Part shown: positions 8,592 to 30,965 of the stretch, in pieces
Layout: the number at the start of each line of letters is the position of its first letter
How positions within the stretch are numbered: position 1 is the stretch's first letter
Origin: Marinomonas sp. CT5
GTDB taxonomy: Bacteria; Pseudomonadota; Gammaproteobacteria; Pseudomonadales; Marinomonadaceae
Reading direction: 5' to 3'
Assembly (NCBI RefSeq): GCF_018336975.1
Contig: NZ_CP025572.1
Span: forward strand, 402,628 to 451,202
Length of the DNA stretch: 48,575 nucleotides
Translations under genes and position numbers: made by a program
Notes under the pieces: generated by a model
The model's input: the letters and a program-made list of their open reading frames with translations, nothing else
What the model was told of the DNA's origin: nothing
The model's database searches: none

Positions 8592-8619
8592 GTGCAATAT
8601 GAAAAATTAGAGAGACAGA

Positions 8620-8643: not shown

Positions 8644-8673
8644 TAGGAAGAAATTAGGTAAGCGGGTGCGAGT

Positions 8674-9249: not shown

Positions 9250-9258
9250 GTCATTGAT

Positions 9259-10794: not shown

Positions 10795-11538
10795 TTATTC
10801 GTTGTCTAAATGTGCGCCTTTCTCAATGGTCGCAGTCGCAAGCTTTAAACGCTCTACTACTGCATCCAGGCGAAATAGTTCGAATGAGCTTGTGGTTCCT
10901 ACAAAGGCAATGCTTCCAATAATTTCATCGTTTTCAAGGTTGAGAATGGGAGCGGCAATCCCTGTTAAACCTAAATTTAACTCATCATGAGTGATACAAA
11001 AGCCATCCTTACGGATTTTTTTGGTTTCAGCATTAAATTCTTTCCAAGTAAGACTGTATTCGTCATTTGGTTCAATTTGTTCATCATAGATTTTTTTGAG
11101 GCGATTGGGCTTCTGGAGAGCGACCAGTACTTTAGATTGTGCCCCTTTAAAAATGGGCAACGGGCGGCCTCGGCCAAAGGTAAAGCCATACTTTTTAATG
11201 TCTGATTCAATATGAGTATTAATGATGTGACCATCGTAAAACACACTCATATAGACAGTAAGACCTGTGCTTTTTGATAGCTCGGCCATGACTTCACGAC
11301 CATGTGAAATAAGAGGGTCATGTTGTCTCATCATCCAGTCAAGTTCGATAATTCTGGGGCCTAATGTATAGCTAGTATCTATACGGGTTAATAGTCCTGC
11401 ATCACAAAGCTCACGTACGTATCGGTAAGCAGTGGCACGTGAAAGGGACAGTTGCTTAGCAATATCATCCACATTGATGACGAGGGAGTTAGGTCCAAAA
11501 ATATTGAGGACATTTAACATTTTATTGAGACTGGACAC
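10795..11538 (-). CDS. IclR-family transcriptional regulator
   Basis: This 247-residue regulator has an N-terminal winged helix-turn-helix (about 5-60) with the IclR pattern VDDIAKQLSLSRATAYRYVRELCDAGLL. The C-terminal IclR effector domain includes GLTGIAAPILN and IGSIAFVG. GTG at 11538 is chosen because AAGGAG ends five bases upstream; the next upstream in-frame GTG at 11544 overlaps that ribosome site. It is convergent with tctA and divergent from the first ALDH gene. IclR proteins usually control nearby degradation genes and respond to a pathway metabolite. Similar imperfect palindromes in three nearby promoter regions suggest it governs tct, the ALDH and the 13678 operon. Confidence 0.9.
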   Translation of the reverse strand: MSSLNKMLNVLNIFGPNSLVINVDDIAKQLSLSRATAYRYVRELCDAGLLTRIDTSYTLGPRIIELDWMMRQHDPLISHGREVMAELSKSTGLTVYMSVFYDGHIINTHIESDIKKYGFTFGRGRPLPIFKGAQSKVLVALQKPNRLKKIYDEQIEPNDEYSLTWKEFNAETKKIRKDGFCITHDELNLGLTGIAAPILNLENDEIIGSIAFVGTTSSFELFRLDAVVERLKLATATIEKGAHLDNE

Positions 11539-11645
11539 GTACACTCCTTGGTAATAGATGAATTGATAGATTATATGTTCGATAGCGTTATTTGATCAAT
11601 TGTTTGATGCTTGGTGTCAAAAACACTTTGATTTTAGTATTTTTT

Positions 11646-11733: not shown

Positions 11734-11782
11734 TTGCTTATTATTAGATGACAGAATTTATTGTAAAAAATTACAATTTTTA

Positions 11783-11796
11783 TCTTATTATGAGAA
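11783..11796 (-). promoter_or_regulatory. Candidate IclR-regulon site (TTCTCATAATAAGA on the minus strand)
   Basis: The plus strand reads TCTTATTATGAGAA. It shares TTCTCATAAT with the other copies but is AT-rich, so a chance match is possible. Confidence 0.3.
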
Positions 11797-12011
11797 ATAT
11801 GTGATTTAAAGTTGTTTACATGGTAGTTTTTGTGTGGCATAAATCTTACATTGTGCTTTTGGTTGATGATTGCTTTTTGGCTGATCTGGTCTCTTGTTGA
11901 GGCGGATTAATTAGACTGAATGAAACATTCTGATTGTGCTGCTTAGTTAATTTTTTCTATTCGATGCCATTACTGTCTAGTTAGGCATTGCAAGTTATGT
12001 GGAGGTAAGCA

Positions 12012-13424
12012 ATGAATCGTCATTTTAAATTTCTTATTAATGGAGATTGGGTAGAAGGAAATAATTCGCCTTTTAGCGTGAAGAACCCAGCAACACTTGA
12101 AACTGTGGCAACTTGTGCTAATGCTGATAAATCGCAATTAGATGAAGCTGTAAAGGCGGCGCAAACTGCTTTCAAAAGCTGGTCGGTTTCTAGTCATGAA
12201 GAGCGTAAAAGCTCGCTCCATAAAATTGGTGATGAATTAGAAGCGCGCGCCAGTGAAATTGCTGCTCTGATTGTCGCTGAACAAGGTAAGCCTTTTGCTC
12301 TTGCAATGGGTGAGGTTCAGGCGGGGGTGGCATGGTTGCGATACACAGCTTCTCAGGATATCCCAGTAAAAGTAGCCGAAGAAACAGACACTAAACGCAT
12401 TGAAATTCATCATAAGCCACTTGGTGTTGTTGGTTCTATTACCCCTTGGAACTGGCCTTTCATGATTGCTATTTGGCATATTGTTCCCGCAGTAAGAGCT
12501 GGGAATACTGTTATTAACAAGCCTTCTGGATTAACGCCCTTTAGTACGATCACATTGGTAGAGATTATGAACAATCATCTGCCTAAAGGTGTTGTAAATA
12601 TAATTACTGGCCAAAGTGGCATAGGCAGCGGTATTACCTCCCATCCTCAGATTAGTAAGATTGTTTTCACTGGATCAACGGAAACGGGTCAATCGGTAAT
12701 GCGTAGTGCGGCTGATAATTTGAAGCGACTTACGTTGGAATTAGGCGGGAATGATGCCGCGATTGTTCTAAAAGGAACCGATGTAGAGAAAGTCGCCGGC
12801 GAAATTTTTGCTGCCGCATTCCTCAATATGGGTCAAACCTGTGGTGCTATTAAGCGTCTTTATGTTCATGAGTCTGTCTATGAAGATATGTGTGCTGCAT
12901 TGGTTTCTACTGCTAATGAACAGGTTGTTGGTAATGGTATGGATGAAGGTGTCAACTTTGGCCCGGTCCAGAATAAAGACCAGTTAGAATTGGTTGCGAG
13001 CTTTGTTGATGATGCGCGAAAACGTGGCGCGACGATATTAACGGGTGGCCAGCCACTTGAAGGTGCAGGGTATTTTTACCCGCCAACGCTTGTTGCTGAT
13101 ATTTCCAATGATGCTCTTTTAGTTAAAGAAGAGCAGTTTGGCCCTGCTCTTCCAATTATTAAGTTTACCGATGTTAACGATGTAGTTGAAATGGCTAATG
13201 GTGTCGATGTTGGATTAGATGGTTCTGTTTGGGGACCAGATACAGCAGAAGCTACAGAGATCGCTTCTCGTCTAGAGTGTGGTACCACCTTCGTCAACAC
13301 TCACGCCAAGATTCAGCCAAACATTCCAATGGGCGGATGCAAAATGTCTGGCTTTGGTGTGGAGTTTGGTGAAGAAGGCTTACTGGAATTTACTACGTTA
13401 CAGGTGGTTCACATCAACAAATAG
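12012..13424 (+). CDS. NAD(P)-dependent aldehyde dehydrogenase
   Basis: This 470-residue enzyme has the full aldehyde dehydrogenase fold. Motifs are TPWNWPF at 144-150, FTGSTETG around 219-226, catalytic glutamate E243 in LTLELGG, and catalytic cysteine C277 in MGQTCG. GGAGG precedes the ATG. It has its own strong terminator, so it is transcribed apart from the following operon, and is divergent from the IclR gene. It oxidises an aldehyde to an acid, probably an intermediate of the pathway encoded on both sides; the exact aldehyde is unknown. Confidence 0.93.
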   Translation: MNRHFKFLINGDWVEGNNSPFSVKNPATLETVATCANADKSQLDEAVKAAQTAFKSWSVSSHEERKSSLHKIGDELEARASEIAALIVAEQGKPFALAMGEVQAGVAWLRYTASQDIPVKVAEETDTKRIEIHHKPLGVVGSITPWNWPFMIAIWHIVPAVRAGNTVINKPSGLTPFSTITLVEIMNNHLPKGVVNIITGQSGIGSGITSHPQISKIVFTGSTETGQSVMRSAADNLKRLTLELGGNDAAIVLKGTDVEKVAGEIFAAAFLNMGQTCGAIKRLYVHESVYEDMCAALVSTANEQVVGNGMDEGVNFGPVQNKDQLELVASFVDDARKRGATILTGGQPLEGAGYFYPPTLVADISNDALLVKEEQFGPALPIIKFTDVNDVVEMANGVDVGLDGSVWGPDTAEATEIASRLECGTTFVNTHAKIQPNIPMGGCKMSGFGVEFGEEGLLEFTTLQVVHINK

Positions 13425-13500: not shown

Positions 13501-13618
13501 GGTTTTATTTTTCTCTGATTTTGAGATTAGAAGCCGTCGAATAGGAAAAAATAAGAGGGCCAATAATACGAAAATCTTACATTTATCAATTATTATCAAA
13601 TAATAGGTGTTTTAATCG

Positions 13619-13653
13619 TTGACAAATGTTTGTATTTTCGCATAATGTGAGAA
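13619..13653 (+). promoter_or_regulatory. Sigma-70-type promoter of the ThDP operon with an overlapping candidate operator
   Basis: A consensus -35 box TTGACA (13619-13624) is followed, after 16 bases, by CATAAT (13641-13646), one mismatch from TATAAT. The sequence CATAATGTGAGAA (13641-13653; minus strand TTCTCACATTATG) belongs to the group of candidate IclR sites and covers the -10 box. That placement fits repression in the absence of inducer. The start codon lies about 25 bases further on, behind an AGAGG ribosome site. Confidence 0.6.
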
Positions 13654-13677
13654 TAAGTTAAATAAAGAGGTTCTTCT

Positions 13678-15219
13678 ATGAATGGTGCAGAAGCAATAAT
13701 AAAAGCCGCAGTCGACTCAGGTGTTGAGTACTGTTTCGCTAACCCAGGTACGACTGAGATGCCGTTTGTAGCTGCTATGGATAGTGAGCCAGGATTTCGC
13801 CCCGTTCTCAGTATGTTCGAAGGAGTATGTACTGGTGCCGCTGACGGCTACGGTCGTGTATCTGGACGCCCAGCGTTGACACTTACTCATTTGGGGCCAG
13901 GATTCGCCAATGGGATTGCCAATTTACATAATGCTCGTCGCGCAAATAGCCCAATCGTTAATTTAGTTGGGGATCATGCTTCTTGGCATGTGAATTATGA
14001 TCCGCCGTTAGCAAGCGATATCGAATCTTTGGCTCGCCCTGTGTCTACTTTTTTTCGTACCTCTAAATCAGTTGATCGCATAGTTGAAGATTTTGCCGCA
14101 GCAATGCGTTCTGCTTGGCAACCTTCTGGGTCTATTTCAACGCTTGTTCTACCGATGGATTTGCAAGCCAAAGAATTATCAGATCGCATGCCAAATGTTT
14201 CTATTTTGCCTCCTAAGCGTCACTTTAAAACGGATTATGTTGAAGCTGTTGCTGAACGTATCAAAGCGGGCAAGCGTTTGGTCTTTATCGTTGGTGATAA
14301 TGGACTTGATGAAAAAGGCTTGAAAGCTGCAGGTCGAGTTGGACAGCTTCCAGGCATTAAAATGTTTGCGGAAACTTTCCCACGCATTTCGCATCGTGGC
14401 GGTGGTTTGCCAGATCTTGATCGTCTGCCTTATTTTCCAGAAAAAGCTATTGCTGAATTAGAAAAATTCGACGAAGTGGTTTGTGCTGGAGTGGTTGAGC
14501 CAATCTCTTACTTTGGTTATGAAGGGTTGCCATCTCGTTTAGCCGAAGTGGATCGTTTGGTGACATTGGCGGAAGTAGGTGAAGACGTATCTGGAGCAAT
14601 GGAAGCGTTGGCTGAATTGCTCAATGCGCCAGCTCATAAAGATTTAACTGGCACGATCCCTTTGCCAAGTGCAAATGAAGCATTGACGCCTGATTCTATC
14701 GGTAAAGTCGTTGCAACAGGTTTGCCGGACGACTGTATCGTATCTATTGAAGGTGGCACTTGTGGTTACCCATTTTTTACCGAGTCAGCTCTTTCTGCTC
14801 GTCATCGAGTGATTACCAATACTGGTGGTGCCATAGGTCAGGGTCTACCCGCAGGATTTGGTGCCGCATTGGCTGAGCCGGGCAATACCGTTGTGTGTTT
14901 GCAATCTGATGGTAGTGCTCAATACACCATTCAAACTTTGTGGAGTATCGCCCGCGAGAATCTTCCCGTAGTGATTCTTATCGCAGCTAACCACAAATAC
15001 AACATCCTACAAAATGAATTACGTCGCTATGGAGTAAAAGAATTTGGTTCGAACTCCATTGCCTTAACTGTGTTGGATAAGCCCCGTGTCGATTGGTTGT
15101 CTTTAGCTAAAGGGTACGGTGTTGAGGCAGTTCGTGTTGAAACCAATGCAGAGTTAGCGCATGCCTTTAAAGCCGCATGTGATTCTAAAGCACCGCGTTT
15201 AATTGAAATGTCTTTGTGA
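13678..15219 (+). CDS. Thiamine diphosphate-dependent enzyme (acetolactate synthase/benzoylformate decarboxylase-like)
   Basis: This 513-residue protein has the three-domain ThDP fold. The pyrimidine-binding domain comes first, with likely activating glutamate E48 in MFEGVCTGAADGYGR. A central domain follows, then a cofactor domain with SDGS at 410-413 and asparagine N438, the variant form of the GDG...N metal/diphosphate motif. It is shorter than true acetolactate synthase (about 560-590) and no regulatory subunit gene is near. It resembles the stand-alone group often labelled acetolactate synthase large subunit, which also resembles benzoylformate decarboxylase. First gene of an eleven-gene operon, eight bases ahead of an ALDH. 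A likely role is decarboxylation of a 2-oxo acid to an aldehyde that the ALDH oxidises. Confidence 0.85.
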   Translation: MNGAEAIIKAAVDSGVEYCFANPGTTEMPFVAAMDSEPGFRPVLSMFEGVCTGAADGYGRVSGRPALTLTHLGPGFANGIANLHNARRANSPIVNLVGDHASWHVNYDPPLASDIESLARPVSTFFRTSKSVDRIVEDFAAAMRSAWQPSGSISTLVLPMDLQAKELSDRMPNVSILPPKRHFKTDYVEAVAERIKAGKRLVFIVGDNGLDEKGLKAAGRVGQLPGIKMFAETFPRISHRGGGLPDLDRLPYFPEKAIAELEKFDEVVCAGVVEPISYFGYEGLPSRLAEVDRLVTLAEVGEDVSGAMEALAELLNAPAHKDLTGTIPLPSANEALTPDSIGKVVATGLPDDCIVSIEGGTCGYPFFTESALSARHRVITNTGGAIGQGLPAGFGAALAEPGNTVVCLQSDGSAQYTIQTLWSIARENLPVVILIAANHKYNILQNELRRYGVKEFGSNSIALTVLDKPRVDWLSLAKGYGVEAVRVETNAELAHAFKAACDSKAPRLIEMSL

Positions 15220-15227
15220 GGTTGAGC

Positions 15228-16721
15228 ATGACTACGATGGAACTGTTTCCCGAAGTAAAACGATTTCTAGAAAATCCAAAGCGCTTATTTATTGGTGGCG
15301 AGTGGGTTGATGCGCAATCCGGTAAATCTTTTACAGTAGAAAATCCTGCAACTATTCAAGCTATTGCAAGTGTTGCAGATGCTCAAGCTGATGATGTCGA
15401 TCGTGCGGTCCATGCAGCACGAAGCGCGCTTGAAGGCGAGTGGGGGCGTGTATCGGCTTCAGAACGTACACGCTTTATGCTTCGCCTTGCCGATTTGATA
15501 GAAGAAGATGCTGAAAATTTAGGTCAAATTATCTCGCTAGAGAATGGTAAGCCTTATAGCAATGCGAAGAATGGTGAAGTGGTCATTACTGCTAGCATTA
15601 TTCGTTACTTTGCTGGTTGGCCTTCAAAAATTGAAGGCAGCACCATTCCTGTTTCCCCACGCAGTGGCGAACGTATGTTGAATTATACGGTGAAAGAGCC
15701 TGTGGGAGTTTGTGCTCTTATTGTGCCTTGGAATTTCCCACTTTCAATGTGCGCTTGGAAATTGGGGCCGGCATTGGCAACGGGCTGTACAGCTATCTTA
15801 AAACCTGCCGAACAAACACCGCTTTCTGCTATTCGTTTAGCTGAATTGATTGAGCGTGCAGGTATTCCTCGTGGTGTTGTTAATGTTCTGACGGGGTTCG
15901 GTGCGGGCGCTGGAGCGCCACTCGCGGCTCACCCTGATGTCGATAAAATCGCTTTTACCGGTTCTACTAATGTTGGTCGTTTGATCGCGCAAAGTGCGGT
16001 TGGAAACATGAAGAAAGTGTCTTTAGAGCTGGGTGGTAAGTCACCTAATATTATTTTGCCTGATGCAGACATTATTAAGGCTGCTAAAGGTGCTGCTGAT
16101 GGCATTTTCTATAACCAAGGCCAAGTGTGTACTGCTGCGTCACGTTTATATGTTCACGAGAGTGTGCTCGAGCAAACCCTTGAAGAGTTGCGTAAACATG
16201 CCGCTGCTCATGTTGTTGGTCCGGGACTGGATCCACGTTCAACCATGGGGCCTTTGGTCTCTTCTGCTCAGTTTAATATCGTCAAAGACTATGTTGATAG
16301 CGCCGTTTCTGAAGGTGCTGAACTTGTGTGTGGTGGTCAGAAGCCAAGCGAACTAGGCGATGGCTACTTCATGCCGCCGACCGTTTTTTTAGATAGACAA
16401 GAGCAAGCGCGTATTGCTCGAGAAGAAATTTTTGGTCCTGTCGTCACCGTGATGAGTTGGTCGGATGTAGATGAACTGGTTCATCGTGCCAATGACACGC
16501 CATTTGGTTTAGCGGCTGGTCTTTGGACAAACGATCTGACTCAGGCGCATTCCATTGCAAGCCGCTTAAAAGCTGGGTCTGTATGGATTAACTGTTGGAA
16601 TGTTGTCGATCCTGCTTCGCCATTTGGTGGTTATAAGCAATCTGGGTGGGGACGTGAAATGGGCAAAAATGTCATTGATGCCTACACGGAAACCAAGAGC
16701 GTTTTTGTCAATTTAGGTTAA
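15228..16721 (+). CDS. Aldehyde dehydrogenase (phenylacetaldehyde/betaine-aldehyde dehydrogenase-like)
   Basis: This 497-residue enzyme carries VPWNFP at 166-171, FTGSTNVG at 243-250, catalytic E267 in SLELGG and catalytic C301 in NQGQVCTA. The NQGQxCxA form and the length are typical of the FeaB/BetB-like branch. ATG at 15228 is used because GAGG at 15218-15221 gives correct spacing; the GTG at 15216 overlaps the previous stop. Its start lies eight bases after the ThDP enzyme, so the two are probably translated together and act in sequence (2-oxo acid to aldehyde to acid). Substrate unproven. Confidence 0.92.
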   Translation: MTTMELFPEVKRFLENPKRLFIGGEWVDAQSGKSFTVENPATIQAIASVADAQADDVDRAVHAARSALEGEWGRVSASERTRFMLRLADLIEEDAENLGQIISLENGKPYSNAKNGEVVITASIIRYFAGWPSKIEGSTIPVSPRSGERMLNYTVKEPVGVCALIVPWNFPLSMCAWKLGPALATGCTAILKPAEQTPLSAIRLAELIERAGIPRGVVNVLTGFGAGAGAPLAAHPDVDKIAFTGSTNVGRLIAQSAVGNMKKVSLELGGKSPNIILPDADIIKAAKGAADGIFYNQGQVCTAASRLYVHESVLEQTLEELRKHAAAHVVGPGLDPRSTMGPLVSSAQFNIVKDYVDSAVSEGAELVCGGQKPSELGDGYFMPPTVFLDRQEQARIAREEIFGPVVTVMSWSDVDELVHRANDTPFGLAAGLWTNDLTQAHSIASRLKAGSVWINCWNVVDPASPFGGYKQSGWGREMGKNVIDAYTETKSVFVNLG

Positions 16722-16742
16722 TAGTCATTAGAGGATTAGGTT

Positions 16743-17537
16743 ATGAATTTAGAATTACAAGATAAAGTTGCCATTGTTACTGGCGGCGGTATGGGCATTG
16801 GTAAAGATGTGGCAATGTTTTTGGCTGAGGAAGGTTGCGATGTTGTTATTTGTTCTCGCACCCTGTCTGTTTTAGAAAAAACCGCTGAAGAAATTTCGGC
16901 GGCTACTGGTCGTCGTGTCTTGCCTGTTGTGTGTGATACAACGGACATGGACTCTGTGGAGGCAATGGTCGCAACAGCGGCAAAAGAGTTTGGTCGAATC
17001 GACATCTTAGTTAACGGTGCGGCGGCGCCTTCGGGTGTTGTGCGTAACTCGATTGAATTTGCTAACGACTACGAGTTATTAGGCGATTTGGATACTAAGG
17101 TAATTGGTTACTTCCGTTGTGCGAAAGCTGTGGTTCCTTACATGAAGAAACAAGGTTTTGGTCGCATTGTGAACATTGGTGGCTTAACGGGTCGTAGCAG
17201 CAAAGTCATGTCAGGTATGCGTAACCTTGCCATTGTTCACATGACGAAAAACTTGTCTGATCAGCTTGGTCCTCACGGCATCACTTGTAACATCATTCAC
17301 CCTGGCGTGGTTGATACCCCTCACATTCAAGAGTTATACGAGCGTGAAGGCAAGTTACAAAATAAAACGCCTCAGGAAGTAGAGCAAGGCTACATTGATG
17401 TTACACCAATTCGCCGTACGTTAGCTCCCGTTGAAATTGCTTGGTTAATCGGTTTCTTGGTATCGCCAAAAGCCGGTGCGGTAACAGGTGAGTCTATAGG
17501 TATTGATGGCGGACTAACGCGCGGTATATTCATTTAG
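16743..17537 (+). CDS. Short-chain dehydrogenase/reductase-fold protein lacking the Tyr-x3-Lys motif
   Basis: This 264-residue protein has a classical SDR cofactor motif TGGGMGIG at 13-20 and a Rossmann fold. The strand-4 motif reads NGAA (91-94) instead of NNAG. Aligning the following helix (HMTKNLSDQLG) puts S157 where the catalytic tyrosine should be and N161 where the lysine should be, within SGMRN. The usual serine-bearing motif reads NIGG. The C-terminus has the SDR ending TGESIGIDGG. An MRN-type SDR subgroup lacking the Tyr/Lys pair is, from memory, not rare in databases, so it is likely functional but with different chemistry, or a non-redox role. GAGG precedes the ATG; it sits mid-operon. 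Confidence 0.87.
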   Translation: MNLELQDKVAIVTGGGMGIGKDVAMFLAEEGCDVVICSRTLSVLEKTAEEISAATGRRVLPVVCDTTDMDSVEAMVATAAKEFGRIDILVNGAAAPSGVVRNSIEFANDYELLGDLDTKVIGYFRCAKAVVPYMKKQGFGRIVNIGGLTGRSSKVMSGMRNLAIVHMTKNLSDQLGPHGITCNIIHPGVVDTPHIQELYEREGKLQNKTPQEVEQGYIDVTPIRRTLAPVEIAWLIGFLVSPKAGAVTGESIGIDGGLTRGIFI

Positions 17538-17548
17538 GAGGCAGCACG

Positions 17549-18583
17549 ATGAGCGGAACAATTTTAGTTTCTACAGTCGGCCAAGGTGTCGTCAAAAGTG
17601 CAGATAATGGACAAACATGGCATCGCCTTGGTTTAGGTCAAGATATTGAATTTGATGCTATTACTCGTTCATTGGATGTAGATCCTGCGAATCCAAGCAC
17701 ACTATATATTGGTACGGATGTTGGGTTGTGTGTCAGTAAAGATGCAGGCGCCAAATGGCATCGTATTGATTCGCCTTTCAATGGTGAAACCGTTTGGAAA
17801 GTAGCGGTTGACCCTAATGATTCAATGCGAATTTTTGTGGGTACTGGTGCACCATCACGTGCTGTTTTGTGGCGTACAAAAGATGCGGGTAAAACATGGG
17901 ATCGTGCACCTGTTGAAATCCCTGAGTTTTGTGCTGGTGTGAGTAAGCCTCGCTTATTAGCCTTTGCTTTTGATCCAACTGACAGTAATAAGGTTTGGTT
18001 TGGTTTAGAAGAAGGTGGTCTATTTAAGAGTGTGAACGGTGGTGATACATGGGAACGTATCGATGATCGTTTATTGTGGGACTTTAATTCAGACATTCAC
18101 ACTATTCAAGTTATGCCTAACCACGGACAAAAAGTCATTGTTGTTGTATGTGTTAACGCGGTTTATCGTAGTTTTGATGATGGCGAAACATGGGAAGGCG
18201 TAATCGCAAAAGATGAATTTGGTTTGTATTACGCACGCTCAACTGCTGTACCTATGGGCACAGAAAGTACTATTTATTTAAGTGTCTCTGATGGTACTCC
18301 AGGTACAACTAGCCAAATTTTTGTTTCTCATGATGCGGCTGCAACATGGCAGTTATTGCCCTTTCCACTACAACCAAACTCATGTGTTTGGGGGATTCAT
18401 GTAAATCCAGCTAACCCAAATCAAGTGGTTGCTGGTACTAAGTATGGACACTTGTTTACTAGTGATAAAGCCGGCCTATCTTGGAAAAAAGAATGGCGTG
18501 AATTCAGCGAAATTTCGGATGTGCTTTGGACACCCGCCGAAGCTGTTATTGAAGCTGCTCATACCTCTGTAATCAAAAAATAG
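17549..18583 (+). CDS. BNR/Asp-box repeat beta-propeller protein (sialidase/YCF48-like), cytosolic
   Basis: This 344-residue protein has about seven Asp-box motifs of the form S-x-D-x-G-x-T-W: SADNGQTW, SKDAGAKW, TKDAGKTW, SVNGGDTW, SFDDGETW, SHDAAATW and TSDKAGLSW. They are spaced about 40-55 residues apart, which predicts a six- or seven-bladed beta-propeller. There is no signal peptide (it starts MSGTILVSTVGQG), so unlike most sialidases it should stay in the cytoplasm. GGAGG precedes the ATG and the gap to the SDR is only 11 bases. Lactonase and scaffold roles are both known for propeller folds; which applies here is unknown. Its place in a catabolic operon suggests hydrolysis or isomerisation of an intermediate. 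Confidence 0.85.
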   Translation: MSGTILVSTVGQGVVKSADNGQTWHRLGLGQDIEFDAITRSLDVDPANPSTLYIGTDVGLCVSKDAGAKWHRIDSPFNGETVWKVAVDPNDSMRIFVGTGAPSRAVLWRTKDAGKTWDRAPVEIPEFCAGVSKPRLLAFAFDPTDSNKVWFGLEEGGLFKSVNGGDTWERIDDRLLWDFNSDIHTIQVMPNHGQKVIVVVCVNAVYRSFDDGETWEGVIAKDEFGLYYARSTAVPMGTESTIYLSVSDGTPGTTSQIFVSHDAAATWQLLPFPLQPNSCVWGIHVNPANPNQVVAGTKYGHLFTSDKAGLSWKKEWREFSEISDVLWTPAEAVIEAAHTSVIKK

Positions 18584-18614
18584 TGGTGTGATCGTATATA
18601 AATAGGTGATGAAC

Positions 18615-19073
18615 ATGAAAGTGAAAATCAATCGTACCCATATATCTTTATTCGTATCCGACCCAGATGCCTCTGCAGATTGGTATGAAGATGTTTTGTC
18701 TATGGAGAAAAACGCTCGTAATGGTGACGAATGGGTAATGATGAGCTTTGGTGACAAGCACCATGATATTGCTTTGATTAGAGCGCCTGAAGGTTCTGCA
18801 AAAGGAGTGATTGGTCTACAGCATTATGGCTTGGAGATCGATGGCGATTTGACCACCTTGCGCAGACTCTATGGCATGTTGCTGACTAAAAACGTCCCGA
18901 TTGTCAAAACTACGGATCATGAAGTAGGTATTGGACTGTATTTTGAGGATCCAGATGGCAACCGCTTAGAGTTCTTTTTAGAAACAGAGCATGACGATGA
19001 GTTAGGTAAGCAACGCTTTAGAGCGACCGATGCCCCAAGTCGTCCACTCGTACTTGAACCCATTTTTGACTAA
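18615..19073 (+). CDS. VOC-superfamily protein with a His-His-Glu metal triad (possible extradiol dioxygenase or isomerase)
   Basis: This 152-residue protein has one pair of vicinal-oxygen-chelate modules. Metal-ligand candidates are H9 in RTHISLFV, H70 in GLQHYGLEI and E119 in DPDGNRLEFF, the same 2-His-1-Glu order as type I extradiol ring-cleaving dioxygenases. Single-domain VOC proteins also include glyoxalases and resistance proteins, so this is only a candidate. ATG at 18615 is chosen because AGGTGA precedes it by five bases. In an operon with an MhpA-like hydroxylase, a hydrolase and an MhpD-like hydratase it would fill the otherwise missing ring-cleavage step. Confidence 0.8.
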   Translation: MKVKINRTHISLFVSDPDASADWYEDVLSMEKNARNGDEWVMMSFGDKHHDIALIRAPEGSAKGVIGLQHYGLEIDGDLTTLRRLYGMLLTKNVPIVKTTDHEVGIGLYFEDPDGNRLEFFLETEHDDELGKQRFRATDAPSRPLVLEPIFD

Positions 19074-19092
19074 TTTTGTAAGGATTTTATTC

Positions 19093-19695
19093 ATGAAAGA
19101 AGCTAATTTTGGCCCATACCATATTCGTAAATGGTTCTACCATTACGAAGAGACCTTAGCCAACGAAACGGGCAAGTTGGCCGATGGTGAACCTGTTAAA
19201 AAATATGTTATTGCGGCAGCTGTTCATAATCCATTTGCTAATACCTATTCAGAAGATTTGTCTAGTTTGATCAATCAGTCTCCAGAGCTCGGCAAAGAGT
19301 TTGGTCGCCGTATCAATGAAGTCGCCGGTGACAATGAGATTGTTAGCTATGGTAAGTCGGTTCTGGTTGGCGCCTTTGGCGAATACGAACACGGTAATGC
19401 TTTTCTTACGAATCCAGCTGCTGACCCTGTACGTGCTGCTGTCGGTGGTGGTAAATCTTGGGTGCCATCAACCGGTAAGGTGGGTGCTCCTGGTGCGACC
19501 ATCGACGTGCCATTGGCTCATAAAGATGCTTTATATGTGCGCTCTCATTATGACTCAATAGCCGTCTCTTTTAACGATGCGCCACGTAATGACGAAATCT
19601 TGATTATCTGGTCATTCGCTACTCGTGGTCGCTTACATGCTCGCCTTGGTGGGTTAGAAGCGAAAGATGTTAAAGGTGAAAATGGCCTCGTTTAG
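19093..19695 (+). CDS. Amino acid synthesis (DUF1185, AA_synth) family protein
   Basis: This 200-residue protein matches the AA_synth/DUF1185 family by its opening IRKWFYHYEET, the segment VIAAAVHNPFA, the core SYGKSVLVGAFGEYEHGNA and the ending IIWSFATRGRLHARLGGL. The family name comes from early annotation; no reaction is firmly assigned to it as far as I know. ATG at 19093 follows AAGGA; an upstream in-frame start would overlap the VOC gene. It lies among ring-degradation-type genes, so an amide or lactam/lactone handling role is possible but unproven. Confidence 0.82.
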   Translation: MKEANFGPYHIRKWFYHYEETLANETGKLADGEPVKKYVIAAAVHNPFANTYSEDLSSLINQSPELGKEFGRRINEVAGDNEIVSYGKSVLVGAFGEYEHGNAFLTNPAADPVRAAVGGGKSWVPSTGKVGAPGATIDVPLAHKDALYVRSHYDSIAVSFNDAPRNDEILIIWSFATRGRLHARLGGLEAKDVKGENGLV

Positions 19696-19736
19696 AGGTC
19701 ATTTTTAACGGGGCGTTTTGTATAGAGGTAAGAGCA

Positions 19737-20582
19737 ATGACAATGTCGAGTAGCAGCCACTTTTTTACCAGCGATGGACTTAGCTTACATTACCTTAAAT
19801 GGGGCAATGGCAAGGTACCTGTGGTCATGCTTCATGGTCTACGTGGCTTTGCTCAAACTTGGCAAGACTTAGTGGATGCTTTGGGTGAAGACTTTACTTG
19901 CTATGCGTTGGACCAGCGCGGGCGCGGGGATAGTGATTGGGGACCAGCAGAAGATTATAACGCTGACACTTATGTAAAAGATTTTACACGATTCGTTGAT
20001 CATTTAGCGCTAGATCGCTTCGTCTTGATCGGTCACTCGTTAGGTGGACAGAATGCCGTAGAATTCGCGCGACGACACCCTGATCGTGTGATGGCGATGG
20101 TAATTGAAGATATTGGCCCCGGTTCTTCAAAACAAGGTGAAGGCGCAGAACGTATTCGTCGTGAAATGCGCAATACACCTTTAAGCTTCGCTTCATGGGA
20201 AGAGGCCAAAGCTTTCTGGACTAAGTCACGCCCAAACTTAACCGAACAAGCACTTCAAGCGCGTTTGAATCATTCGTTCCGCGAAAAGGACAATCGAGTG
20301 ATGTGGAAGCATGATCAAAAAGGCATTGCTGAAGCGCGATTGAGCATTGAGCCGATAGATTTATGGCCCGCTTTTAAAGCAATCAATTGTCCTACTTTAT
20401 TGGTAAAAGGTGGTAATTCTGACTTTTTATCCAATCAAACTGTTATAGAAATTATGGCATCTAACAATGATGTTGTTCAGACCGTTCAGATAGATGGAGC
20501 TAGTCACTACGTTCATGATGATCAACCTGAAAAATTCAATGACTCAGTGGTTCGGTTCATGAAAATGGTTCTTACAGATTAG
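19737..20582 (+). CDS. Alpha/beta-hydrolase-fold hydrolase (MhpC/PcaD-like)
   Basis: This 281-residue hydrolase has the oxyanion region VVMLHGLRG at 29-37, the nucleophile elbow GHSLGG with S101, a likely acid residue in GGNSDFL, and the catalytic histidine in GASHYVHDD near the C-terminus. The size and motif set fit C-C bond hydrolases of meta-cleavage pathways and enol-lactone hydrolases alike. A GAGG site precedes the ATG. Placed between the AA_synth gene and the flavin hydroxylase, it probably cleaves a ring-opened product or a lactone. Confidence 0.88.
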   Translation: MTMSSSSHFFTSDGLSLHYLKWGNGKVPVVMLHGLRGFAQTWQDLVDALGEDFTCYALDQRGRGDSDWGPAEDYNADTYVKDFTRFVDHLALDRFVLIGHSLGGQNAVEFARRHPDRVMAMVIEDIGPGSSKQGEGAERIRREMRNTPLSFASWEEAKAFWTKSRPNLTEQALQARLNHSFREKDNRVMWKHDQKGIAEARLSIEPIDLWPAFKAINCPTLLVKGGNSDFLSNQTVIEIMASNNDVVQTVQIDGASHYVHDDQPEKFNDSVVRFMKMVLTD

Positions 20583-20593
20583 AGGTCTTTCAA

Positions 20594-22207
20594 ATGAAAA
20601 TAAAAAAAACCGATGTTGTAATTGTTGGCGGTGGTCCAAATGGCGTGACATTAGCCAATTATCTGGGCATGTATAATATCAAAACAGTATTGCTCGAGGC
20701 ATCAGCCGAGATTTTACCTTACCCACGAGCAGTGGGAATGGACGACGAAGCACTGCGAGTGTTGCAAGGTGTTGGTCTAGCCGAAGTGGCTGTTAAAGAC
20801 ATGATTGCGAATGTTCCGCTGCGTTATTACAACGCTCGAGGAGTCTGTTTTGCGGAAGTGAAGCCGAAGGCTGCCCAGTTCGGCTGGCCGATGCGTAATA
20901 TGTTCATGCAACAGCTCTTGGAAGTAACTCTGCGCGAGGGTTTAAGCCGTTTTGATTCTGTAGATTTGAGCCTTGGTCATTCAATGACCAGTATAACGGA
21001 AGAGAATGACAAGGTGGTGTTGACCGTTACCGATCCGTCCGGTGAAGAATATCGCCTTGAAGCGGCCTATGCGGTTGGCGCAGACGGTGGTCGTTCAGAA
21101 GTCCGTAAGCAGACAAACATAGGTTTCTCTGGATTAACCCACCCGGCAAAATGGGTCGTAGTGGATGCGGCGAATGACACCCTCGATGCCCCCTTTACGG
21201 CACTACATGGTGACCCAGTAAGACCCTTTGTTTGTATTTATCTACCTTATCAACATCGTCGTTGGGAATTTATGTTATTCCCTCATGAGAAAGAAGAGGA
21301 TATCTGCCAAGAAGACGTTATTCGTGGCCTGATTCGTCGTCACATTGGTGACAAAGTAGATAGCCTTGATATCGTACGCATTCGTGCTTATACGCATAAT
21401 TCCCGTGTCGCGGATACCTTTGTCAAAGGCCGAGTATTGCTATGTGGTGATGCGGCACATATTACACCGCCATGGGCGGGTCAGGGTCTTAACTCGGGAA
21501 TTCGTGATGTGGTTAATATCGGCTGGAAAATTGCTGCCGTGGTTAAAGGCCTGGCATCCCCCCAAATTTTACAAAGTTATGATGACGAGCGCCGAGGTCA
21601 TGCGACTGACTTGGTCGGTTTGGCCGATAATATGGGCGCGATTCTTGGAATGACCAACCCTATTATGGCGGGTATCCGCGACTGGATGTTCAAAGCAACA
21701 GATTCCGTAGACAGTTTGCGTGAGCATTTGGTGGAGTTCAAATTTAAGCCTAAAGCTCATATCGTTAAAGGTATCGTTTATCATGAAAGTGAAGAAGTCT
21801 ACGAAGATACGTTAGTCGGAAAATTGTTTATTCAGCCTGACGTAGAAACGGCTGAAGGCAAGAAAGAGAAACTTGATACAGTGTTAGGTGATTGGTTCTC
21901 AATAATTGGCTATCGCGTCAATCCCACTGATTACATGTCAGAAGAAAACCTTGCGTTTTGGAACAAGATGCAAACCCAATATATTCAAGCTAACCCTTCT
22001 CGCAGTGGCTTAAGTCATGACGAGCGGTTAAAAGCATCCGGTTGCGTCAGCATTGAAGACATAGATAACAATTTATCCGATTGGTTCGGTCAAGCCCGTG
22101 ACAAAATTGCCATCATTCGCCCAGATCGATTTGTTGCCGCGTTAACGTCTGCCAAGCGTTTGAATGAAGTGTTGGATGAGCTGCGTGCCAAACTTACTGC
22201 TAAATAA
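20594..22207 (+). CDS. FAD-dependent aromatic hydroxylase (MhpA-like flavoprotein monooxygenase)
   Basis: This 537-residue enzyme carries the three group A flavoprotein monooxygenase motifs: GGGPNG at 12-17 for the ADP part, VGADGGRS at 161-168 (the DG motif), and GDAAH at 285-289 followed by PPWAGQGLNSG. PYPRAVGMDDEALR near residue 42-55 and the length are typical of the MhpA branch, which hydroxylates phenylpropanoid or related phenolic acids using NAD(P)H and O2. It begins eleven bases after the hydrolase gene. It is the only oxygenase in the operon apart from the possible VOC dioxygenase, so it probably prepares the ring for cleavage. The substrate is unknown. Confidence 0.9.
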   Translation: MKIKKTDVVIVGGGPNGVTLANYLGMYNIKTVLLEASAEILPYPRAVGMDDEALRVLQGVGLAEVAVKDMIANVPLRYYNARGVCFAEVKPKAAQFGWPMRNMFMQQLLEVTLREGLSRFDSVDLSLGHSMTSITEENDKVVLTVTDPSGEEYRLEAAYAVGADGGRSEVRKQTNIGFSGLTHPAKWVVVDAANDTLDAPFTALHGDPVRPFVCIYLPYQHRRWEFMLFPHEKEEDICQEDVIRGLIRRHIGDKVDSLDIVRIRAYTHNSRVADTFVKGRVLLCGDAAHITPPWAGQGLNSGIRDVVNIGWKIAAVVKGLASPQILQSYDDERRGHATDLVGLADNMGAILGMTNPIMAGIRDWMFKATDSVDSLREHLVEFKFKPKAHIVKGIVYHESEEVYEDTLVGKLFIQPDVETAEGKKEKLDTVLGDWFSIIGYRVNPTDYMSEENLAFWNKMQTQYIQANPSRSGLSHDERLKASGCVSIEDIDNNLSDWFGQARDKIAIIRPDRFVAALTSAKRLNEVLDELRAKLTAK

Positions 22208-22229
22208 CTACTAAAAGTAGGAGAGCCTG

Positions 22230-22991
22230 GTGTTGGAAGAGCAAATTGCAAAGAGGTTGTTTGAAACACGTCGTGACAGTATTGCTATCCCTTTGATTGA
22301 TGACCTTTCCAAGCAAAATATTGCGTTTGGGTATCAAGTTCAAAAAGCGATTATTGATCTGAATAAACAAGCGGGTAACAAGCTAATAGGTTGGAAAGTT
22401 GCATTGTCTAATCAACCTGCTTTAGATCGTTTTGGCTTGGAAGAACCGATTTATGCGCCGCTATTTGCAGCAAATATACTGTCTAGTCATTTAGCTCAAG
22501 AGCAGGTTATTGCGCCTAAAATTGAATCTGAAGTTCTGTTTGTTTTGGGGGAAAGTCTTTCTGGGTCTGATGTGTCTGACGACGAAATATTGGCCTCTAT
22601 TGCCTGGATGGCTCCCGCTATTGAAGTTGCGGATTGCCGTCTTAAAGATTGGAAGTTCGATATTAGTCACTTTGTGGCTGACAATGCGGCAGCGGGCTTT
22701 TATCAGGTTGGTAAGCTGGTTCCCTTTAATGTTAATGAACTGGAAATGATAGGTGACTCTTGTCTGTTAGAAACAGCTGTTATGAGTGAAGTCGGTTCTA
22801 TGGAAAATGTTTTGGGTGGGCCACTTGGTTCAGTCGTGCGCATGATACGTGGGGTTTTGGCTATTTTTGGTGAAATAAAAGCCGGGCAACAGTTTTTGAG
22901 TGGTTCTTTGACCAAGCCTGTAGATATGGTGCCGAGCCATACTTATCGCCTTCACTTGCTTGGTCAGAGCCTATTACTTCATTACAACTAA
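22230..22991 (+). CDS. 2-Keto-4-pentenoate hydratase family enzyme (MhpD-like)
   Basis: This 253-residue member of the fumarylacetoacetase-fold hydratase/decarboxylase family has the marker segments LIGWKVALSN, the acidic metal-binding region APKIESEVLFVL, and APAIEVADCR, which provides a further acidic ligand. Family members hydrate 2-hydroxypentadienoates or decarboxylate oxalocrotonate after ring cleavage. It starts with GTG at 22230 behind AGGAG. The gene follows the hydroxylase as in mhp-like pathways. No aldolase equivalent to MhpE is visible in this window. Confidence 0.88.
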   Translation: MLEEQIAKRLFETRRDSIAIPLIDDLSKQNIAFGYQVQKAIIDLNKQAGNKLIGWKVALSNQPALDRFGLEEPIYAPLFAANILSSHLAQEQVIAPKIESEVLFVLGESLSGSDVSDDEILASIAWMAPAIEVADCRLKDWKFDISHFVADNAAAGFYQVGKLVPFNVNELEMIGDSCLLETAVMSEVGSMENVLGGPLGSVVRMIRGVLAIFGEIKAGQQFLSGSLTKPVDMVPSHTYRLHLLGQSLLLHYN

Positions 22992-23006
22992 CCTGCAGGT
23001 AACGTT

Positions 23007-23405
23007 ATGACTGATAAATTTGATAAAGGCCTCATCACTCGTAAAGCCGTCTTAGGCAATGCGTATGTTGATAACTCAATTAACAACGCGACTAATTTTA
23101 CGCGCCCACTTCAGCAGTTAGTAACAGAGTATTGCTGGGGAGATGTATGGCAGAGAGATGGGCTGGAAAAGCGAGAACGTAGTTTGATCAATTTGGCCAT
23201 GATTGCAGCGCTTAATCGCCCTCATGAATTAGCTTTACATGTCCGCGGTGCTGTGAATAACGGCGTCACTCTCATTGAAATTCGCGAAGTTTTATTACAG
23301 GTGGCTATTTACTGCGGTGTACCAGCATCGATCGATGCCTTTCGATCAGCCAGTGCGGTATTAAAAGAAATGGGGCTGGATTTAGATGCCTCTGAATTAG
23401 CCTAA
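23007..23405 (+). CDS. Carboxymuconolactone decarboxylase family protein (PcaC-like)
   Basis: This 132-residue protein has the CMD-family layout. EYCWGDVWQRDGL and RSLINLAMIAALNRPHEL are followed by HVRGAVNNGVTLIEIREVLLQVAIYCGVPAS, which matches PcaC-type gamma-carboxymuconolactone decarboxylases. It has no CxxC motif as found in AhpD-like peroxidases. It lies 15 bases after the hydratase. A true protocatechuate branch is unlikely, since no pcaB, pcaD or pcaGH is nearby, so it may decarboxylate a different lactone or keto acid. Confidence 0.87.
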   Translation: MTDKFDKGLITRKAVLGNAYVDNSINNATNFTRPLQQLVTEYCWGDVWQRDGLEKRERSLINLAMIAALNRPHELALHVRGAVNNGVTLIEIREVLLQVAIYCGVPASIDAFRSASAVLKEMGLDLDASELA

Positions 23406-23434
23406 TCGTCTTATGTCCAAATAATGCTAATGGA

Positions 23435-23453
23435 GCGCATGGTCTTCATGCGC
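23435..23453 (+). terminator. Hairpin between the CMD and ALDH genes (weak terminator or processing site)
   Basis: GCGCATG / CATGCGC with a five-base loop is followed by CTTCCTTTCTT, T-rich but interrupted. It may reduce readthrough into the last ALDH gene. Confidence 0.35.
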
Positions 23454-23500
23454 CTTCCTTTCTTATCATCCCACCCACAATATAAAAAGAGATCGTAACC

Positions 23501-24931
23501 ATGCTTGAATCCAGTTATCCATTTTACTTGGCTAATGAAGCTGTTTATGCCAACACGGATTTGTCGGTTCATAATAAATACTCTAATGAAGTCGCGACAA
23601 AAGTGGCTATGGCCAGTGCTGCTGATATTGATAAAGCCATTGCCGCAGCAGATGGGGCGAAAGATGCCATGAAAGCTATGCCAGCTTATCAGCGTCAAGC
23701 CATTTTGCAGCATTGTATAACTCGTTTTAAAGAGCGCTTTGAAGAGTTAGCTTATGCGCTGTGTATTGAAGCAGGTAAACCTATCAAAGACTCGCGCGGA
23801 GAAGTAACACGATTAATTGATACTTTCCAAATAGCAGCTGAAGAAGCCACTCGAATTTATGGTGAAGTCATGCCAATGGACATTTCTGCGCGTGCAGCAG
23901 ATTACCAAGGTATGTGGAAGCGCGTTCCTATTGGTCCATGTTCGTTTATTTCGCCGTTTAATTTTCCGTTGAATTTAGCTGCGCACAAAATTGCTCCTGC
24001 AATCGCTGCGGGTTGTCCTTTTGTTCTAAAACCAGCCAGCTTAACGCCAGTGAGTGCTTTGATTGTTGGTGAAATTCTAGCCGAAACTGATTTGCCAAAA
24101 GGTGCATTCTCGATTTTACCTTGTCATCGTGATGGTGCCGATTTGTTTACGACTGATGAACGTTTGAAATTGTTAAGTTTCACTGGTTCCCCAGATGTTG
24201 GTTGGGCGTTGAAAGCCAAAGCGGGTAAAAAGCCGGTTGTACTTGAACTTGGTGGCAATGCGGCTTGCATTGTTGATGAAGGGACTGATTTAAATGACGC
24301 TATTCAACGCATTGTATTCGGTGCGTATTACCAGTCTGGACAAAGTTGTATCAGTGTACAGCGTATTATCGTGCATGAATCTCTTTATGATGATGTTAAA
24401 CAACGGCTTACTCAGGCGGTGAATGCTTTAGTGTCGGGCAATCCATTAGATGAAAACACCTTTATTGGTCCAATGATTACTGAAAAAGAAGCGGTTCGTT
24501 TGCATACTTGGATAGAAGAAGCCGTTGCTGGTGGCGCAACCGTGTTAGCGGGTGGTACACGAAGTGGTGCTATGTTGGATGCTACCTTGATGGAAAATGT
24601 AGACCCTTCTATGTCTGTGTCTTGCCAAGAAGTGTTTGGTCCAGTGGCTATTATGTCATCCTTTAGTGATTTTGATGCTGCGTTAGAAGAAGTAAACAAT
24701 TCCGTATTTGGTCTACAAGCAGGAATCTTTACCAAAGATATTTATAAAGCCTACAAAGCTTGGGATGTACTAGAAGTCGGTGGCGTTGTCATTGGTGATG
24801 TACCTTCTTGGCGTGTTGATCATATGCCCTATGGTGGTGTCAAAGACAGTGGCTTGGGACGTGAAGGTGTGCGCTTCGCAATAGAAGACATGACTGAGAT
24901 GAAGCTTATGGTATTGCGTACTCCTAAATAG
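23501..24931 (+). CDS. Aldehyde dehydrogenase (third of the locus)
   Basis: This 476-residue enzyme has SPFNFPLN at 151-158, FTGSPDVG at 227-234, catalytic E249 in VLELGG and catalytic C283 in QSGQSCIS. SPFNFPLN and QSGQSCIS recall the lactaldehyde/glyceraldehyde-3-phosphate-type non-phosphorylating branch more than the two ALDHs upstream. Last gene of the operon, ending at a strong terminator. It probably oxidises a short aldehyde released late in the pathway, for instance an aldolase product; this is inference. Confidence 0.92.
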   Translation: MLESSYPFYLANEAVYANTDLSVHNKYSNEVATKVAMASAADIDKAIAAADGAKDAMKAMPAYQRQAILQHCITRFKERFEELAYALCIEAGKPIKDSRGEVTRLIDTFQIAAEEATRIYGEVMPMDISARAADYQGMWKRVPIGPCSFISPFNFPLNLAAHKIAPAIAAGCPFVLKPASLTPVSALIVGEILAETDLPKGAFSILPCHRDGADLFTTDERLKLLSFTGSPDVGWALKAKAGKKPVVLELGGNAACIVDEGTDLNDAIQRIVFGAYYQSGQSCISVQRIIVHESLYDDVKQRLTQAVNALVSGNPLDENTFIGPMITEKEAVRLHTWIEEAVAGGATVLAGGTRSGAMLDATLMENVDPSMSVSCQEVFGPVAIMSSFSDFDAALEEVNNSVFGLQAGIFTKDIYKAYKAWDVLEVGGVVIGDVPSWRVDHMPYGGVKDSGLGREGVRFAIEDMTEMKLMVLRTPK

Positions 24932-30953: not shown

Positions 30954-30965
30954 TAATGGCAAAAA

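Follow-up and report, generated by a model that had tools for sequence, protein, structure and literature searches.

Extradiol cleavage of a catechol gives a 2-oxo (enol) acid, and in the hpa pathway such a cleavage stands between the conversion of an amine to an aryl acid and the release of a semialdehyde. An arylacetic acid would give succinate semialdehyde in this way. The mhp/hpp operon for phenylpropionate relies on MhpB, a LigB-type enzyme, and the mandelate pathway is built on the pair MdlC and MdlD. The tgn pathway for trigonelline uses a two-component oxygenase for direct opening of the pyridine ring and is not known to include a VOC protein or a thiamine diphosphate (ThDP)-dependent enzyme. 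Here, we compare these systems with an operon of Marinomonas sp. CT5 that lies in a stretch of 48,575 nucleotides (assembly GCF_018336975.1, contig NZ_CP025572.1, positions 402,628 to 451,202, forward strand); we refer to this whole stretch as the window and give all coordinates within it. The initial annotation presented the region as a degradative operon with no recognized pathway. That description is supported: the gene content looks aromatic, and a literature text search whose reach stopped short of the original fde papers, so that identity with fde is possible, found no published operon with this gene set. In our reading, to which we assign a probability of roughly 0.5, the operon would supply the ring-opening half of a catabolic regulon that is under IclR control and handles an aromatic amine of the arylethylamine type along with the aryl acid derived from it.

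The operon comprises eleven genes on one strand (+), spanning 13678-24931, and they are as tightly spaced as first described, with nine of the ten intergenic gaps no longer than about 41 bp and a final gap of 95 bp. The best of 20 promoter-like sites in the region is a sigma-70-like promoter, TTGACA-16-CATAAT, at 13619-13646 (+), which matches at 11 of 12 positions. Shuffled sequence yields more promoter-like sites on average (27.2), yet TTGAC and CATAAT are kept in all five aligned Marinomonas and Vibrio loci, window included, as is a 24-base stretch from the -10 box onward, in keeping with the single promoter proposed earlier. The terminator proposed with it found no such backing: the scan returned 13 terminator-like sites where 14.4 were expected, and the site after the last operon gene is weak.

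Seven of the genes were treated as a core, namely those for a ThDP enzyme, an atypical short-chain dehydrogenase/reductase (SDR), a BNR propeller, a VOC protein, an AA_synth protein, an alpha/beta hydrolase and an MhpA-type hydroxylase. Related loci were collected with an AA_synth alignment and two peptide patterns, one genome per species, and the best 80 of 431 relatives were read. Their genes were called with a home-made codon model that gives approximate starts, and genes cut at locus ends were counted as absent; several of the hydrolases "missing" from Pseudomonas loci may lie past the locus end. The type of each neighboring family (c10, c12, c13, c33, c48, c52 and others) was determined on only one or two members or by eye. 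In this search, which answers an early suggestion to look for co-occurrence of the gene set, 59 of the 80 loci hold the full core, 13 hold six of its genes and eight hold five or fewer. The hosts belong to more than one phylum and include Marinomonas, Vibrio, Amphritea, Nitrincola, Marinobacterium, many Pseudomonas, Acinetobacter, Burkholderiales, sphingomonads and actinobacteria; among named organisms, Marinomonas spartinae comes closest (AA_synth, 93-94%). Judged by sequence comparison, the eleven-gene operon is genuine, its gene order is conserved, and the joint occurrence of its core genes in more than one phylum goes beyond chance. The core BNR gene is rare, being carried by 4 of 48 genomes of the genus and 3 of 145 of the order (with the own genome counted in both, and the other two of the order only 32% identical), so the operon is accessory and has probably spread horizontally.

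The single-domain VOC protein (18615..19073, +; alternative GTG start at 18606) is a predicted extradiol-type ring-cleaving dioxygenase, judged by its conserved residues and a signature. Across the family (n=71, with the window protein counted), conservation is 1.00 for His50, His70, His102, Tyr109 and Glu119 and 0.97 for His9. We take His9, His70 and Glu119 to be the expected metal ligands (2-His-1-Glu) of type I extradiol dioxygenases, and His50, His102 and Tyr109 presumably stand at the places of catalytic residues in these enzymes; all of these roles were assigned from spacing rather than from a structure alignment. The window protein and 67 of 81 family members carry the extradiol dioxygenase signature, a PROSITE-style pattern; none of 1459 other called proteins and none of 16200 shuffles does. 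Among the matches of the profile search were catechol and homoprotocatechuate 2,3-dioxygenases as well as Fos proteins. RecA artefact aside, the best chain was 9u42, which has the name glyoxalase there and homogentisate 1,2-dioxygenase among the fold matches; its printed stretch fits the signature by eye. The artefact itself, a set of matches to fused RecA chains in the PDB, came from summed sub-threshold repeats and was disregarded. The VOC protein is thus likely to be a ring-cleaving dioxygenase, and the earlier statement that the operon has no classic ring-cleaver does not survive its extradiol-type active-site set. The enzyme that would act before it is the FAD aromatic hydroxylase of the MhpA type (20594..22207, +), which passes NF004831 (705.9, cut-off 546).

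We propose the following pathway. An APC permease would import the amine, and the TctCBA transporter, together with a porin, would import the acid. A trio of FAD, RidA and OCD proteins would convert the amine to an aldehyde, a step that a class-III aminotransferase or a copper amine oxidase would take over elsewhere, and aldehyde dehydrogenase 0 (ALDH0) would oxidize this aldehyde to the aryl acid. The FAD hydroxylase would then put a hydroxyl on the ring, and ring cleavage by the VOC protein would yield a 2-oxo (enol) acid. The alpha/beta hydrolase would cut the ring-opened product, and an MhpD-like protein (NIPSNAP elsewhere) would process a fragment. Finally, the ThDP enzyme would decarboxylate a 2-oxoacid and aldehyde dehydrogenase A (ALDH-A) would oxidize the resulting aldehyde, replacing the usual hydratase/aldolase end. 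Succinate semialdehyde is probably one product, and the AA_synth protein may help at the semialdehyde stage, a role reported for its homolog TgnF. TgnF, called a homolog of HcdD, is reported to stimulate the succinate-semialdehyde dehydrogenase (SSADH) TgnE, and the same effect could not be shown for HcdD (PMC7913881). A gene that exceeds the SSADH cut-off lies inside the Amphritea operon (L012; 660.8, cut-off 646.35), and succinate semialdehyde as a product fits with both this gene and the report on TgnF.

The simplest order would be hydroxylation, cleavage, hydrolysis, thiamine-dependent decarboxylation and aldehyde oxidation. The initial annotation had placed decarboxylation and aldehyde oxidation before hydroxylation and ring opening, a less parsimonious order. 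Four sphingomonad loci (L004, L069, L070, L080) have no hydroxylase gene in the stretch read but retain the VOC protein, hydrolase, ThDP enzyme and an aldehyde dehydrogenase, and in them the ThDP gene stands immediately behind the hydrolase gene. A ThDP gene without any MhpD-type gene occurs in 20 loci, mainly of Burkholderiales and actinobacteria. Since the ThDP gene follows the hydrolase gene in the sphingomonad loci and persists in these 20, the ThDP enzyme would act after ring opening.

The ThDP enzyme (13678..15219, +; PF02776/PF02775) also gives reason to consider a mandelate-like scheme in which the side chain is processed first. A beta-hydroxylated amine such as octopamine, synephrine or noradrenaline would be turned into a hydroxymandelate by the trio and ALDH0, an oxidase would form benzoylformate, the ThDP enzyme would be a benzoylformate decarboxylase and ALDH-A a benzaldehyde dehydrogenase, and ring hydroxylation and opening would come last. 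The protein is benzoylformate-decarboxylase-like, and its closest solved chains are benzoylformate decarboxylases. Glu48, His71 and the motif NPGTTE are invariant in its family (n=70, window included), and this histidine presumably matches the catalytic His70 of benzoylformate decarboxylase. The ThDP gene and that of ALDH-A (15228..16721, +; PF00171, 599 bits) abut, or overlap if the alternative GTG start of ALDH-A at 15216 is used; the best NCBIfam models for ALDH-A (StyD, BADH and HpaE) each score under the cut-off. The trio, moreover, resembles tyramine oxidase, and with an hpa cluster for the unhydroxylated acid already in the genome, a related amine would be the likely remaining substrate. 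Nevertheless, the score of the ThDP enzyme is too low for NF005485, the model of benzoylformate decarboxylase (189, cut-off 493), and the model that it does pass, NF005760, is one for "acetolactate synthase" (654.5, cut-off 363). The operon has no mandelate dehydrogenase gene, and the SDR lacks the Ser, Tyr and Lys residues. Benzoate-type products normally go to the pca pathway, yet no protein of the genome passes the model for the protocatechuate 3,4-dioxygenase beta subunit (PcaH; 61 against 296), PcaG not having been searched for. Together with the position of the ThDP gene after the hydrolase gene in sphingomonads, these points make a mandelate-like scheme rather unlikely. Two loci (L030, L048) had the ThDP gene called in two pieces.

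The SDR (16743..17537, +) is atypical. In the family alignment (n=80, window included), the motif GGLTGRxS..SGxRN is conserved and the classical Ser-Tyr-x3-Lys is absent, its places being held by an invariant Gly, Ser157 and Asn161. Because these catalytic residues are missing here and, in an alignment read by eye, seemingly also in the nearest solved relative, 6jh7, a redox role for this protein is doubtful. For the BNR propeller (17549..18583, +; Pfam; model pLDDT 90.3), the closest solved fold is 3b7f, a putative glycosyl hydrolase, and the structure search returned a generic propeller without a functional match; no signal peptide was seen by eye. The AA_synth protein (PF06684, DUF1185; 213 bits; relatives 2qtp and 3byq) runs from 19093 to 19695 (+), its start lying at 19093 rather than 19030, as 119 of 120 listed homologs are 200-201 residues long. 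In two loci from an alphaproteobacterial bin (L056, L057), a BNR and an AA_synth gene (about 45% and 70% identical) form a pair without the rest of the core, with a hydrolase added in L057, which suggests that the two proteins act together. Five actinobacterial loci (L064, L067, L074, L081, L085) carry an extra WrbA-type quinone reductase gene, the only one scored being that of L081 (164.7, cut-off 141), hinting at a quinone-prone intermediate.

The alpha/beta hydrolase (19737..20582, +; Pfam) retains candidate Ser, Asp and His residues, and its nearest solved relatives are 3bwx, 7c4d and 3kxp. The last of these is an alpha-(N-acetylaminomethylene)succinic acid hydrolase, acting on an enamide, which we take to be an enzyme of vitamin B6 breakdown. 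This likeness raises a different possibility, that the substrate is an N-heterocyclic amine of the pyridine or pyrrole type, in which case the hydrolase would cleave an enamide in the manner of the vitamin B6 and trigonelline pathways, freeing succinate semialdehyde, and the AA_synth protein would aid the semialdehyde dehydrogenase. The effect of TgnF described above would fit, as would a Sulfitobacter plasmid (L006) on which tandem AA_synth genes adjoin a UPF0280 gene and molybdenum hydroxylase subunits. On the other hand, the likeness to 3kxp amounts to about 90 bits in a huge superfamily, no amidase-family gene is found among the eleven, and an MhpA-type hydroxylase and the extradiol-type residues of the VOC protein are typical of carbocyclic phenols. 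We therefore consider an N-heterocyclic substrate unlikely.

The MhpD-like protein (22230..22991, +) is a distant member of the MhpD/DmpH family that could be a hydratase or a decarboxylase. It has no Pfam match, and its NCBIfam scores of 90-105 bits are all under cut-off, the best being 105 against 350 and that for the MhpD hydratase model 98.3 against 350. Its gene is found in 50 of the 80 loci and a sphingomonad counterpart (c41) in three; 15 have a NIPSNAP gene and 12 have none of these. NIPSNAP never shares a locus with the MhpD-like gene or c41, and NIPSNAP and the MhpD-like gene may replace one another. With a hydroxylase, a dioxygenase-like protein, a hydrolase and an MhpD-like gene all present, the operon could be read as a canonical MhpA-B-C-D meta pathway whose aldolase is supplied elsewhere and whose remaining genes are accessory. 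That reading is hardly credible, however, given an MhpD-like protein so far under cut-off, its absence from 27 of the 80 loci even when c41 is counted (20 of which keep the ThDP gene), the lack of an aldolase in the operon, and the conservation of the ThDP, SDR, BNR and AA_synth genes about equally with the rest.

The last two genes encode a carboxymuconolactone decarboxylase (CMD) family protein that is PcaC-like (23007..23405, +; PF02627) but falls narrowly under the PcaC cut-off (TIGR02425, 154.8 against 155.7), and aldehyde dehydrogenase B (ALDH-B; 23501..24931, +; PF00171, 474 bits), which passed none of the 25 NCBIfam models shown. Counting ALDH0, all three aldehyde dehydrogenases pass no NCBIfam cut-off among the models shown. 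The protein families first assigned to the operon stand, then, with amendments to the AA_synth start, to the MhpD assignment, which is only distant, and to the CMD protein, which does not reach the PcaC cut-off. No aldolase family was found among the eleven products with Pfam and NCBIfam; the absence of an MhpE-type aldolase and of PcaGH from these products, as originally noted, was borne out.

Left of the operon lie genes that the initial annotation overlooked as an amine-oxidizing front end. ALDH0 (12012..13424, +; PF00171), predicted to oxidize the amine-derived aldehyde, resembles aminobutyraldehyde dehydrogenase but is under cut-off (436 against 615). The amine-oxidase trio (4205..7173, -; Pfam) consists of a FAD oxidoreductase (from 4205), RidA (5561-5983) and an OCD protein (6034-7173) that passes the NCBIfam model for tyramine oxidase subunit B, NF004848 (708.9, cut-off 362). 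Four OCD genes of the trio type are present in the genome, three of them in trios read outside the window. One sister trio adjoins a homoprotocatechuate cluster (L107, G000:C1:3008000-3027900; hpa set at 3016-3026 kb), which speaks for oxidation of aromatic amines by the trio. In that cluster, HpaD_Fe, HpaE, HpaG-C, HpaH and HpaI are all over cut-off and a CHMI-like gene is under it (123.8 against 215); the model for the VOC-type HpaD gave no sign of hpa in the genome, the cluster using the other HpaD type, and HpaBC was not searched for.

Similar modules accompany the core elsewhere, which were likewise missed at first. A class-III aminotransferase gene (c12) occurs in 18 of the 80 loci and always adjoins an aldehyde dehydrogenase gene, complete or truncated, and trio genes occur in 14, with the core hydrolase gene immediately after the trio in six Pseudomonas loci. 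Three actinobacterial loci (L064, L067, L076) have both an APC permease gene and a copper amine oxidase gene beside the core; the only one of these oxidases tested, that of L064, is closest to the phenylethylamine oxidase of A. globiformis (560 bits). Altogether, an aminotransferase, trio or copper amine oxidase gene is nearby in 35 of the 80 loci. The genus and order samples are too thin for a statistical association of the core BNR with the trio. The c12 aminotransferase was rejected as the deaminase of the window itself, with no match over cut-off in the genome. The histamine (hin) pathway, brought to mind by the combination of aminotransferase, aldehyde dehydrogenase and APC permease, was also set aside: in the available portions of its descriptions (PMC6467879, PMC8231116), with which the comparison was made, the later genes (FAD-monooxygenase, enamine deaminase, amidases) differ.

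An operator model ties this front end to the operon. The model, a 21-base palindrome with the consensus aaaTCTCATAATATGAGAttt, was obtained by expectation maximization on ThDP-upstream regions of 33 non-redundant loci out of 44 eligible, Marinomonas and Vibrio loci being left out, and the 48.6 kb window was scanned with 300 first-order Markov shuffles as the control. Operator-like palindromes lie upstream of the ThDP gene (13509..13529, score 13.2), over the -10 box of the operon promoter (13635..13655, 12.0), between the IclR and ALDH0 genes (11778..11798, 11.5; second site at 11641, 8.9), between the trio and tctC (7470..7490, 10.9; second site at 7225, 8.3) and between the APC permease gene and an adjoining AraC gene left of the operon (2627..2647, 9.8). 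The top eight sites are all outside the listed genes, the eighth, at 1068, being left of the first listed gene. Four sites score at least 10 against 0.12 expected from the shuffle mean, and none of the 300 shuffles reached four; the maximum score in a single shuffle was 13.75. The genes so connected include an IclR-family regulator (10795..11544, -; PF01614, PF09339), which we presume to read the operator and whose family is present in 53 of the 80 loci; the TctCBA tripartite tricarboxylate-type transporter (7608..10740, +; PF03401, PF01970, with TctB named by position, having no Pfam match); and an APC amine/amino-acid permease (1104..2528, -; PF00324), with the operator-like site upstream. 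Taken together, these sites make it probable that the operon, ALDH0, TctCBA, the amine-oxidase trio and the APC permease form one IclR regulon, a wider scope than the eleven genes originally considered. Import of an acid through TctCBA, as first proposed, fits with the site upstream of tctC.

Operator-like sites in other genomes extend this picture. In a Vibrio relative, the OCD promoter carries a site (11.7), and in two Pseudomonas loci (L041, L059), a c48 aminotransferase unit with an AraC gene carries one (12.8 and 11.6), so that this unit may be one more amine module belonging to the regulon. A porin site in Marinobacterium ramblicola (L016; 15.7) lies in a region unshared with an IclR or ThDP gene. 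Sites scoring at least 10 stand before other genes in 9 of 362 cases, and some of these nine (the c48 aminotransferase, a second BNR copy, and transporters typed by eye) are plausibly regulon members. In the same Marinobacterium locus, the BNR, VOC and hydroxylase genes are followed by another set of the three, which has an operator-like site of its own (18.5).

Several observations weigh against our reading. Within the genome, the other three trio stretches peak at 7.4, 6.5 and 9.6 (the last not at the trio), and the site of 7.4, weak and within the shuffle range, stands directly before another trio (L104). The genome's own trios also group together, apart from those of Pseudomonas, where trio promoters lack the operator (0 of 12 at a score of 10), and the link between trio and operon in Pseudomonas is for this reason one of proximity only. 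Several operator-bearing regions elsewhere are shared with a ThDP or IclR gene and say little of the other neighbor, among them the ALDH0/aminotransferase site of Pseudomaricurvus (22.4) and porin sites in Oceanospirillales (L011, L012, L015), and the pairing of the IclR protein with the operator is inferred. In 45 of the 80 loci, the stretch read has no aminotransferase, trio or copper amine oxidase gene. The SSADH model is passed by one of the two aldehyde dehydrogenases tested outside the window (that of L002 scoring 447 against 646) and by none within it. As for the ring-cleaver, 14 of the 81 VOC homologs lack the dioxygenase signature, and the top Foldseek matches of its model mix FosA/FosB, 9u42, glyoxalases and extradiol dioxygenases; because the fold matches include the VOC-type homogentisate dioxygenase 9u42, the ring that is cut could be that of a hydroquinone instead of a catechol. 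Lastly, a separate hpa cluster for hydroxyphenylacetates is present in the genome, and therefore the operon probably serves another acid.

Under our reading, the neighbors would point to tyramine-family amines. As hpa probably serves acids of the 4-hydroxyphenylacetate type in this genome, the substrate is probably an arylethylamine other than a source of that acid. Beta-hydroxylated (octopamine-like) and meta-substituted arylethylamines are both candidates, neither favored by direct evidence. Nine of the 80 loci (L031, L037, L043-L047, L049, L050) have a gamma-glutamyltransferase gene (c19) close to the operon, each together with an apparent ABC transporter, and the B. pyrrocinia plasmid locus (L002) also has such a gene; the imported form could be a gamma-glutamyl amine.

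Beyond the operon, the window holds an adjoining ethanolamine set (25437-32023) with a porin, an ethanolamine permease (491.8, cut-off 381.75), EutC, EutB and an AraC regulator. AraC genes of family c10 are near the core in 41 of the 80 loci, the one tested being EutR-like but under cut-off (139.9 against 319). The window closes with a sugar-acid region (32654-48573) encoding a LacI-type regulator, an ABC transporter, GH88, altronate/galactarate dehydratase and an HpaI-type aldolase.

The gene set is present in many Pseudomonas and in marine, soil and actinobacterial genomes, and yet our searches turned up no function assigned to it. More tentatively, with the odds somewhat against it, we suggest that the core encodes a widespread, undescribed "decarboxylative meta-cleavage" route for aromatic biogenic amines, in which the rewired SDR, the cytoplasmic BNR protein and the AA_synth protein would be new non-redox enzymes (an isomerase, lactonase or hydrolase). 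If true, this would give a function to AA_synth/DUF1185, to a clade of BNR propellers and to an SDR clade without Ser, Tyr and Lys, a new ending to meta-cleavage pathways, and a further way to degrade aromatic amines, which serve as signals in plants and animals. With the regulon present in the window, the question of the substrate can be tested directly through induction.

Among described systems, the hcdABC-hcdDEFG genes for 7-hydroxycoumarin in Pseudomonas mandelii 7HK4 share with the operon a FAD hydroxylase, an extradiol dioxygenase, a hydrolase and a DUF1185 protein, HcdD; they differ in a larger dioxygenase and in accessory genes for an FMN reductase, a cupin and a zinc alcohol dehydrogenase, and the accessible parts of the reports mention no ThDP, SDR or BNR gene (PMC6222606, PMC7913881). 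This likeness bears on whether the operon could serve flavonoids, coumarins or phenylpropanoids through a pathway like fde, ifc or hcd, in which a hydroxylase works with a glyoxalase-type or extradiol dioxygenase. Such a pairing of a FAD hydroxylase with a dioxygenase is described there, so far as the sources could be seen (PMC11069340, PMC6222606), and DUF1185 recurs in hcd (PMC7913881). But HcdB and HcdC ran at 31 and 20 kDa, unlike the operon products, the portions seen of the ifc and hcd descriptions, with which the comparison was made by description rather than sequence, name no ThDP, SDR or BNR gene, and amine modules adjoin the present operon, so that we regard this explanation as highly unlikely. 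The tgn genes of Acinetobacter baylyi, as cited in PMC7913881, share an AA_synth-family protein, TgnF, next to succinate-semialdehyde dehydrogenase.

With the mandelate pathway, the operon shares a benzoylformate-decarboxylase-like ThDP enzyme adjoining an aldehyde dehydrogenase; it lacks a mandelate dehydrogenase or racemase and adds a ring hydroxylase and a dioxygenase-like protein. It differs from the beta-ketoadipate pathway in having no PcaGH-type intradiol dioxygenase. The mhp/hpp operon has in common with it an MhpA-type hydroxylase, an alpha/beta hydrolase and an MhpD-family gene, whereas here a one-domain VOC protein takes the place of MhpB, MhpE and MhpF are absent, and a ThDP enzyme is conserved. 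The departure from the textbook mhp and beta-ketoadipate routes that was anticipated from the start is therefore upheld. Likeness to hpa with its tyramine and dopamine front end extends over the conversion of amine to aryl acid, extradiol cleavage, an aldehyde dehydrogenase, an MhpD-family step and possibly succinate semialdehyde; in contrast, the operon has no HpaD, HpaG, HpaH or HpaI over cut-off and has the one-domain VOC protein, the ThDP enzyme, the atypical SDR, the BNR propeller and AA_synth. The system thus belongs to meta-cleavage catabolism, as a variant of it rather than a wholly new type of system.

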